Positions 23,962 to 27,009 of a DNA stretch of 64,000 nucleotides are shown here, in pieces (position 1 is the stretch's first letter; every line of letters begins with the position of its first letter). The stretch covers positions 248,001 through 312,000 of the forward strand of contig JAHEXY010000006.1 of NCBI GenBank assembly GCA_023251875.1. The letters run 5' to 3'. The notes under the pieces were generated by a model, which was given only the letters and a program-made list of their open reading frames with translations, had not been told where the DNA came from and searched no databases. Source of the stretch: Bacteroidota bacterium (lineage in GTDB: Bacteria; Bacteroidota; Bacteroidia; JAHEXY01). The translations under genes were made by a program, and so were the position numbers.

Positions 23962-26900
23962 ATGAAACTATTTCCATACGTATTAACCCGCTATAGCGGA
24001 GGTTCATTCAACGATTTTGAAAGCCTTAAAATCAAGGATACCCATCAATTGGTTCATCAAATACATGATTTTAAGCAAGAACTGAAGGCCATCAAGAATA
24101 AAATTAGCGATGCTATCCATCCGCTTATTCCGTCTTTCAACGAAAAGCCTGAGATTCAAAAGCAATTGATCAATTTACGAAGAGATGTATTCAATGAACG
24201 AAACATTAAGGATGATAAAATTAAATTGGCCGAAGAAGTTTTAGCTCCTGAAATTATAGCTGACATACAAGAATATATTGGATTGTATATACAATTAGAG
24301 GGTTTGGTAAAACATGGCGCCAATATCTATGAAAATGAGCTAAGGGAATCTCGTTTGCGCTTAAAAAAAATTATTGGCAACCCAGATTTTCAAAAAGGCT
24401 TAATTCTATCGAGTCGCTCCATTCTTGATCAATTGAATAAGTATCTTGAAAAAGACCCCAATGATTATCGAAAAAAAGAAATTCAAATTGAACAAGGAAT
24501 GATGAAATACATTTCACGCATGTATTGCAAAACATCTCCTTTTAGTACTTTTACCAATCTTTCTGCAGGAAAAATAAAACCCTTAAACAATCCCTCATCT
24601 ATTATTGATCATGAAAAATCAGAGACCAATTTTGAACTAAAAAGCCATATTCGAATCAATAATTACCTTTATCATTTTACAAGAGGCCTTCTTTTAAAAA
24701 ATAAAGATATTTACTGTTGGTTTTTAGTTCGTCTTAATCCTACAGTTCAAAAAACAGAAGAAACCTATCTGTTTTTAACAAATAGCAATAATGTGGAAGC
24801 TTTTCAGCGCATTCCTTTTTCTCCTGTACTCGATTTTTTTATTGAATTGATTTCAGAACAAACAGAAGGTATTGTTTATAACGATTTACTATCTGCCTTA
24901 CTCGAAAATATAGAAGCTTCATCAGAAGAATTACAAGCCTATATCAATCAATTAATCGAATACGGTTTTCTAGAATTCAACATTGGTGTTTCGGGCACAG
25001 ATCCTGATTGGGATATTACCTTACAAAACAAATTACACTATGCATTTGAAAAAAATGCGCCTCATATAAAAGAATTGACAGCAACCTTGGCAAGTGTTAG
25101 AAATTTAGCACGACAATATGAAATTGGTTCCGTACAAGAACGGCAACAACTACAACAAGAAGCATACAATCAACTTAGAGCAATTTGCATGCAATTACAT
25201 GAGGCAGCTGGTTTACCCGCTGACGAACGCAAAACACAAGACGTATTAATAGCCGAAGCAAAGCAAAAAAGAGAAGCATTTGAACAAGAACAAAAACTTG
25301 CAAAAGAAAAAGAAGCAGAAAATGCTGAGAAAAAAGAACAAGAAATAAAGGCGGAGCCAAAAGAAGAAATTAAGAACCTAAATACAACAGAGCAGCCCAC
25401 TGAAAATACAATTGATGATGAACAAGTAATTTTTAAGCATCAAGCATCCACCTATTTTTATTTTAAGCCCGAACAAATGTTTTATGAAGATACAACCGTT
25501 GAAGTGGCTCCTCTTTTTAATACCAGCGATACAGAAACACTAATGGCTAAATTTTATAAATTGATTAGTACCTATAAATCATTTGAACATACTTTTGATG
25601 AACGTGAAAAAATGGCTCAATTTTTTGCCAATAAATATGGTAAAAAAACAAAAATAGACCTGCTTACTTTTTATGAAGATTTCTATCGTGATTACAAGAA
25701 AAAAGAATTAGAGGATATTAATAAGGCGCAACAAGAACAAAGAAAAAAAGCCGAAGAAGCCATAGAGAAATTAAAAATTAAGAATGAAGAATTAAAAATT
25801 GGGGAGTCAAAACAAGATGAGAACGCCAAAAGGGAAGATGTAAAAACAGAAAATATTGAACCGATAAAAATAGTTGCAGCGCGCATAAAACTGCGTCAAG
25901 AAATGAATGCCAAATGGCTAGAAGCATTTGTTTCAGTTTGTAAAGAAAAAATCGAATGGAATAACGATGAAATAAATATCAAAGCTAATTTATTTGATGA
26001 AGCAACAGCAAACGTTCCTATTCATTTATATGATAACCCTAAAAGTTCATATGCGGCATTTATGATGCCCTTTATTAAAAGTGATGCTGATGGAAATAAA
26101 AAGTTAATGATGGTGATCAATTCTTCTTTTCCGGGATATGGAAAACTATTTACCCGTTTTTTACATATTCTTGAGCCAAACGTAACTGATACAATCAGAA
26201 AATGGAATGCAGAAATTAATCAAGGTTACATAAGCGCAGAAGATACCGATGCTTCTTTTTTCAATGCCAATTTACATCCACCTCTACTTCCCTATGAAAT
26301 GTGGATTCCCAATGGTAATAATAGTTTACCTGCAGAACAACAAATTCCCATTACAGATGTTGAAGTAATTTTTAATCATTCAACAGAACAACTCACCTTG
26401 ATTCATAAAAAATTACAGAAAGAGATAAAAATATTTGATCTCTGTTTTCAAGGAATCAATGGCCGCTCTCAATTATTTCAATTGCTCGAAAAATTTTCAT
26501 CATCTCGCTATCCTATCTGGATGAATGTAACCATGACCATTAATAATTCAAAACCACAAGAAGAAAATGTTGACAATACTAAACCTCGTGTATGGCAATG
26601 GCCGCGTATTGTTTTTGAAGATCAACTTATTTTAAAACGAAAATCTTGGTTTGTTCCCAAAGCTTTATTGCCTATTCGGCAACCTAATGATAACAATTGG
26701 TTGTATTTTGAACGCGTTAATTTATGGAGATTGGAACACCGTATTCCCAAAGAAGTTTTCATTTATATTGTTAACAGAAATGAGTTGGATGTATTGCCTC
26801 CAAGCCAAAGAAAAAATTTAAATAGAGATGATTACAAACCACAATATATTTCTTTCGAAAATCCTTTTATGGTTCATCTGTTTGAAAAGTTAATCGAAAA

Positions 26901-27009
26901 AGTACCTACTAATTTAAGAATTGAAGAAATGTTACCCGGAGCTGAAAACCTATTAGAAGTAAACGGACAAAAACGCATTACAGAATTACTGGTTCAGATT
27001 TATGAATAA
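23962..27009 (+). CDS. LanB-like lantibiotic dehydratase, glutamylation domain only
   Basis: LanB enzymes transfer glutamate from glutamyl-tRNA to Ser/Thr of a peptide; a second domain then eliminates it to give dehydro-amino acids. This 1015-residue protein carries the N-terminal family features: the start MKLFPYVLTRYSGGSF, and ISRMYCKTSPFSTFTNLSAG near residue 190, which corresponds to the R-x-TPFG-LFAG region. The late part PRVWQWPRIVFE ... LWRLEHRIPKEVFIYI at ~885-960 is typical of the end of the same domain. The chain stops where a separate SpaB_C-type elimination domain would begin. The extra length comes from two Lys/Glu-rich coiled-coil inserts (~430-475 and ~579-634). It could be half of a split dehydratase or a PEARL ligase. 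No precursor, transporter or elimination partner lies beside it; a LanC-like gene is 8 kb downstream. Confidence 0.8.
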   Translation: MKLFPYVLTRYSGGSFNDFESLKIKDTHQLVHQIHDFKQELKAIKNKISDAIHPLIPSFNEKPEIQKQLINLRRDVFNERNIKDDKIKLAEEVLAPEIIADIQEYIGLYIQLEGLVKHGANIYENELRESRLRLKKIIGNPDFQKGLILSSRSILDQLNKYLEKDPNDYRKKEIQIEQGMMKYISRMYCKTSPFSTFTNLSAGKIKPLNNPSSIIDHEKSETNFELKSHIRINNYLYHFTRGLLLKNKDIYCWFLVRLNPTVQKTEETYLFLTNSNNVEAFQRIPFSPVLDFFIELISEQTEGIVYNDLLSALLENIEASSEELQAYINQLIEYGFLEFNIGVSGTDPDWDITLQNKLHYAFEKNAPHIKELTATLASVRNLARQYEIGSVQERQQLQQEAYNQLRAICMQLHEAAGLPADERKTQDVLIAEAKQKREAFEQEQKLAKEKEAENAEKKEQEIKAEPKEEIKNLNTTEQPTENTIDDEQVIFKHQASTYFYFKPEQMFYEDTTVEVAPLFNTSDTETLMAKFYKLISTYKSFEHTFDEREKMAQFFANKYGKKTKIDLLTFYEDFYRDYKKKELEDINKAQQEQRKKAEEAIEKLKIKNEELKIGESKQDENAKREDVKTENIEPIKIVAARIKLRQEMNAKWLEAFVSVCKEKIEWNNDEINIKANLFDEATANVPIHLYDNPKSSYAAFMMPFIKSDADGNKKLMMVINSSFPGYGKLFTRFLHILEPNVTDTIRKWNAEINQGYISAEDTDASFFNANLHPPLLPYEMWIPNGNNSLPAEQQIPITDVEVIFNHSTEQLTLIHKKLQKEIKIFDLCFQGINGRSQLFQLLEKFSSSRYPIWMNVTMTINNSKPQEENVDNTKPRVWQWPRIVFEDQLILKRKSWFVPKALLPIRQPNDNNWLYFERVNLWRLEHRIPKEVFIYIVNRNELDVLPPSQRKNLNRDDYKPQYISFENPFMVHLFEKLIEKVPTNLRIEEMLPGAENLLEVNGQKRITELLVQIYE

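Follow-up and report, generated by a model that had tools for sequence, protein, structure and literature searches.

A probable split LanB glutamylation subunit in a Bacteroidota genome with scattered pinensin-type precursor genes

The gene studied here encodes a protein of 1015 amino acids which is very probably the LanB_B-type subunit of a pinensin-type split LanB, responsible for glutamylation and working with a separate elimination subunit, LanC, a C39 transporter and substrates carrying pinensin leaders. The gene lies in a stretch of 64,000 nucleotides, hereafter the window (C8:248001-312000), from a genome (G000) of 4.81 Mb with 100% completeness and 0.17% contamination. Split LanB is already known from pinensin-type systems. 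What appears to be new, provisionally, is the layout, with pathway genes and at least six peptide substrates scattered over the chromosome. A lanthipeptide layout with scattered substrates is known mainly from marine cyanobacteria, where the enzymes are unrelated.

The glutamylation gene in the window

The gene coincides exactly with the limits of an open reading frame starting with ATG (Table 1). Lant_dehydr_N was the sole domain recognized by Pfam, and no match to Lant_dehydr_C was obtained on the chain, which is thus not a full-length LanB; the earlier note had described the reading frame as lacking an elimination domain, and this was confirmed. In the profile search of the whole genome the lone Lant_dehydr_N match was again this gene (model positions 2-277 and 351-629).

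Table 1. Positions of the genes and protein segments discussed. Plain numbers refer to the window; the others refer to contigs (C), other genomes (G) or extracted loci (L).
Feature	Position	Strand	Basis or remark
Glutamylation subunit (LanB_N), split class I lanthipeptide dehydratase, 1015 aa	23962..27009	+	PF04738 E 2.5e-30, no PF14028; TbtB 6ec7 fold TM 0.80; sole PF04738 gene of the genome
Signature motif, residues 183-195 (YISRMYCKTSPFS)	24508..24546	+	Matches NisB Y80, R83, R87 (here K), T89 (here S); same pattern in TbtB
First charged insert, residues 426-488	25237..25425	+	AlphaFold2: helix 426-455, disordered 457-488
Second charged insert, residues 567-663	25660..25950	+	AlphaFold2: helices 567-613 and 640-663 flanking disordered 614-637
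LanC-like cyclase, 662 aa	35214..37202	+	PF05147 E 2.7e-58; WCHG and CHG motifs; 54% identical to LanC on contig C10
Protein of 3751 aa	6016-17271	-	CARDB, beta-helix and PKD domains; T9SS sorting tail
Elimination subunit 1, match	C14:78048-79001		Lant_dehydr_C
Elimination paralogue 2, match	C10:259567-260505		Lant_dehydr_C
Elimination paralogue 2, gene	L008:9537-10514	-	C10
Luciferase-like (LLM) oxidoreductase	L008:8182-9078	-	C10, between precursor and LanC
Truncated leader, 28 aa	L053:1486-1572	-	C23, no core
Proteins of ~510 aa	L196:9975-11540	-	No Pfam match
	L197:11474-13030	-	
	L202:5902-8970	+	
Related large proteins	L196:2126-8809	-	No Pfam match
	L197:16838-19501	+	
Pinensin leader, G011	C5:5261-5350		
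Two weak Lant_dehydr_C matches, G011	C5:10197-11847		
Microviridin/marinostatin-type precursor, G354	L016:15329-15586	+	NF033738, E 2e-17

The AlphaFold2 model of the protein, built on an alignment with 41 homologues, reached pLDDT 87 and pTM 0.84. The best PDB matches to the model were the glutamylation protein TbtB of the thiomuracin pathway, with the TM-score calculated by target length, and GodF of the goadsporin pathway (TM 0.73); the full-length enzymes MadB, NisB and MibB ranked behind these two (TM 0.52-0.56). The likeness to TbtB and GodF extends over the whole-chain fold and includes the motif YxxRxxxKxSP (PDB 6ec7, 6ec8, 9jhq), whereas identity is only 14-17%, the two proteins belong to pathways of azole-containing peptides, and neither has comparable inserts. 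TbtB was matched by the model from end to end. The C-terminal 300 residues align with the C-terminus of TbtB and are therefore part of the glutamylation domain; within residues ~700-1015, where the earlier note had left room for an elimination domain, there was no match to Lant_dehydr_C.

The two motifs cited in that note were found at residues 185-198 and 875-886. Residues R10, Y183, R186 and K190 are invariant among the 41 homologues, and S192 is always S or T. With positions assigned by motif, these five correspond to R14, Y80, R83, R87 and T89 of NisB, and the replacements K for R87 and S for T89 occur in TbtB as well. Mutants of NisB at these five positions lose dehydration or show it at a lower level (PMC4341554).

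The two charged coiled-coil inserts described earlier are real and appear in the model as helices and disordered stretches. They do not set apart a single odd protein and are common to a clade of pinensin-type split LanBs. Across the family they are charged and vary in length from almost none to longer than in the window protein; relatives from Chitinophaga and Pedobacter have shorter ones. Longer and more charged inserts accompany higher numbers of precursors (Spearman rho 0.70 and 0.66, respectively), a correlation confounded by relatedness, which we treat as a lead only. Perhaps the inserts serve promiscuous handling of substrates or partners.

The immediate neighbours of the gene encode proteins secreted by T9SS. 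Since none of the directly adjoining genes belongs to the pathway, the assignment of the protein to a pathway is built on genome content and on relatives. The earlier statement that no partner gene, transporter or precursor adjoins the gene was right for the direct neighbours, but it overlooked the LanC gene, which follows 8.2 kb downstream in the same orientation; other parts of the genome contain elimination subunits, precursors and a C39 transporter. The window also contains a very large protein with a T9SS sorting tail (Table 1).

Partner genes and scattered precursors

Lant_dehydr_C matches in the genome were limited to two stand-alone genes of ~325 aa on other contigs, C14 and C10, and the remote elimination gene which the earlier note had thought of as decisive was thereby found. 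The machinery is distributed over three contigs: C8 carries LanB_N and the first LanC, C10 carries the elimination paralogue and the second LanC, and C14 carries the first elimination subunit, with a C39-peptidase ABC transporter at a distance of ~6 kb. On C10 a precursor and the luciferase-like oxidoreductase stand side by side with the elimination paralogue and LanC. Thus, LanB_N and the elimination genes do not share a cluster; this is a difference in layout and does not affect the kind of protein. LanB_N and LanB_C were on separate contigs also in genomes G398 and G405, an observation limited by the short contigs. Both LanC copies have kept the WCHG and CHG motifs. In the alignment the C10 elimination paralogue reads YKPETILLGG where its relatives have YxPExxRYGG, although the histidine motif is retained; RYGG was kept or nearly kept in all split partners compared. 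Judged from these residues, the paralogue may be inactive in elimination, impaired, or repurposed, and its loss of RYGG counts against the explanation we prefer. No match to class II LanM (PF13575, DUF4135) was obtained in the genome, and the control genomes likewise gave none, the search being one with no positive control.

The pinensin leader model NF038180 gave seven matches above the cut-off, situated on six contigs and comprising six complete precursors and a truncated one on C23, which probably is a decayed precursor gene. Around the five complete precursors outside C10 the models used detected no LanB, LanC or C39 transporter within ~9-10 kb on each side. Their leaders are of Gly-Gly type, and their cores are intact and rich in Cys, Ser and Thr. 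If dehydration of these scattered precursors follows the class I route, it would be carried out by the window protein, which is encoded by the only Lant_dehydr_N gene of the genome. Proteins of ~510 aa without Pfam match, starting like LIKSLTKGEKRYFKLF, were seen beside or a few kb from two of the scattered precursors and from one precursor in genome G029. The proximity may be due to chance. At the same two loci of the own genome (L196 and L197) there are also related large proteins near the precursors.

Of 395 genomes from the class, five contained pinensin leaders, and each of the four genomes having a strong LanB_N relative was among them. Genome G011 contains such a leader and two weak Lant_dehydr_C matches in a stretch of less than 7 kb; no Lant_dehydr_N was found in that genome. 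Among 40 genomes reached via the relatives, leader matches were most numerous in a Cyclobacteriaceae MAG (40), MAG MO_135.B14 (32), Fulvivirga imtechensis (29), F. kasyanovii (20) and F. marina (14), and they were spread over many contigs. In most of the precursor-rich genomes there is a single LanB_N of the pinensin-type split family and a single matching elimination gene; an ordinary LanB accompanies the split one in F. imtechensis, and in MO_135.B14 there are two elimination genes and, besides the first LanB_N, an additional match that is partial. In the precursors that were read out, mean identity within a genome was 49-61% for leaders versus 23-26% for cores, shuffled cores giving 21-24%, and nearly all cores contained at least two Cys. 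When F. kasyanovii was compared with F. imtechensis, six cores were 50-82% identical, with synonymous sites saturated or nearly so, which indicates purifying selection on individual Fulvivirga cores.

The split LanB_N might serve the small C10 cluster alone, the other leader peptides being decayed or left unmodified. The grouping of precursor, elimination paralogue, LanC and luciferase-like oxidoreductase on C10 would fit such an arrangement, and so would the truncated precursor on C23. We nevertheless regard it as improbable, as the C10 leader (44 bits) is outscored by four of the five remaining complete leaders (48-51 bits), which are followed by intact cores, and as the scattered cores of Fulvivirga are conserved between species.

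Relatives in other genomes

A scan of 84,980 genomes with a four-sequence alignment yielded 75 distinct loci, and with 75 relatives the window gene is not a chance occurrence. LanB_C was present in the fetched stretch at 71 loci, and at 68 of the 75 it was the next gene, lying no more than 500 bp downstream in the same orientation. The stretches also contained LanC (64), the pinensin leader (57) and the C39 transporter (55), all these counts being lower bounds, since many stretches stop at a contig end. In G029 an ortholog with 42% identity is followed directly by a Lant_dehydr_C gene; this genome, the second case of gene separation combined with many precursors, likewise retains an intact LanB_N copy. 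Genome G354 has LanB_N, LanB_C, four precursors with pinensin leaders and LanC grouped in one place. Just downstream of this split LanB/LanC cluster there is a microviridin/marinostatin-type precursor, so that two peptide pathways adjoin.

In the tree the window protein was placed inside the pinensin-type split LanBs, separately from three full-length LanBs that come from Bacteroidota, and in a 12-row set with support 96; membership in an ordinary full-length LanB clade, which the earlier note had named as a refutation, was not seen. The outgroups form long branches, and for this reason only the inner grouping was used, the deeper placement being unsure. The state of having five or more precursors is spread over the tree with 9 changes, the counts from MAGs being uncertain, and precursor dispersal may, from this distribution, have arisen or been lost several times.

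The earlier note had offered two possibilities, half of a split dehydratase or a PEARL. The former is borne out by the partner genes, the 68 neighbourhoods of 75 and the folds of TbtB and GodF; the latter we have rejected. PEARLs such as TglB and BhaB_C use ATP and aminoacyl-tRNA to lengthen a scaffold peptide at its C-terminus and have no elimination partner; in BhaB_C-Trp the ATP-binding residues are Glu813, Arg815 and Asp558. They are LanB-like, resemble the glutamylation chain and lack the elimination domain, as does the window protein (PMC11962472). However, the window family is consistently linked to an elimination subunit, whose gene comes next in those 68 relatives and is present in two copies in the own genome, so that working without an elimination partner does not hold for the family; the associated precursors are rich in Cys, Ser and Thr with Gly-Gly leaders, and the nearest structures are TbtB and GodF. 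Neighbourhoods, partner genes and substrates together make a PEARL very improbable. Slightly less credible still is a relic that lost its cluster partners through rearrangement and is no longer used, as the missing adjoining pathway genes could suggest, given the intact frame of 1015 codons with the residues invariant in 41 homologues, the persistence of intact partner genes, including LanC in the window, and the intact copy in G029.

In the plasmid search the nearest outside relatives were mostly split LanBs of thiopeptide-like clusters, and no PEARL was recognizable among them; a search of phages was negative. Clusters of this Bacteroidota-type family were also seen in MAGs labelled Aminicenantes, Acidobacteriota, Chloroflexi and Phycisphaerae (L054, L065, L068, L071, L079, L088, L092). 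Some bins reach the very large size of 10-12 Mb, so that mislabelling or mixing of bins is suggested, or else gene transfer.

Comparison with known systems and proposed pathway

The closest known system is that of pinensin from Chitinophaga (Mohr et al. 2015), described as a split LanB in passages of PMC7268733 and PMC7296275. Common to both are separate glutamylation and elimination proteins, LanC, the NF038180 leader, leaders of Gly-Gly type and a C39 transporter; in pinensin the genes form one cluster, whereas here both the genes and the precursors are spread through the genome. In its arrangement the system resembles a class I equivalent of prochlorosin production in picocyanobacteria (ProcM, SyncM), with which it shares a conserved leader, highly variable cores rich in Cys, Ser and Thr, scattered precursor genes and one synthetase set. 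Prochlorosins differ in depending on one class II LanM and Nif11 leaders (PMC10783134), in place of the class I split LanB, separate LanC and pinensin leaders found here.

On balance we favour the view that one split LanB, together with one or two LanC enzymes, modifies as many as ~40 scattered precursors with highly variable cores in trans, as a natural class I, tRNA-type peptide library that evolved independently of the class II prochlorosins and in which the inserts perhaps aid promiscuity. The open-access papers searched describe no dispersed class I precursors, and the novelty is accordingly provisional. Genome mining with precursors limited to seven genes around LanC has missed distant prochlorosin precursors (PMC7268733), and with such a limit most of the scattered precursors would be missed too. 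The role of prochlorosins is still an open question (PMC11251773). If the view is correct, a second system with scattered substrates exists on different chemistry and in cultured Fulvivirga, so that the purpose of peptide libraries and parallel promiscuity could be asked about, and a promiscuous class I set of dehydratase and cyclase would be at hand for peptide engineering.

In the pathway we propose, the window protein would most likely glutamylate Ser and Thr in the cores of pinensin-leader precursors in a glutamyl-tRNA-dependent manner. The elimination subunit on C14, perhaps also that on C10, would remove glutamate to give Dha and Dhb, and the stand-alone LanC enzymes of the window and C10 would close (methyl)lanthionine rings by addition of Cys thiols. 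The C39-peptidase ABC transporter on C14 would probably cleave at Gly-Gly and export the product. The computations establish the domains, the fold, the conserved residues, the neighbourhoods in relatives and the scattering of precursors and partner genes; every chemical step, the use of tRNA, the contacts between partners, the site of cleavage and the product are inferences. The LLM oxidoreductase on C10 could, as a putative tailoring enzyme, reduce dehydroamino acids.
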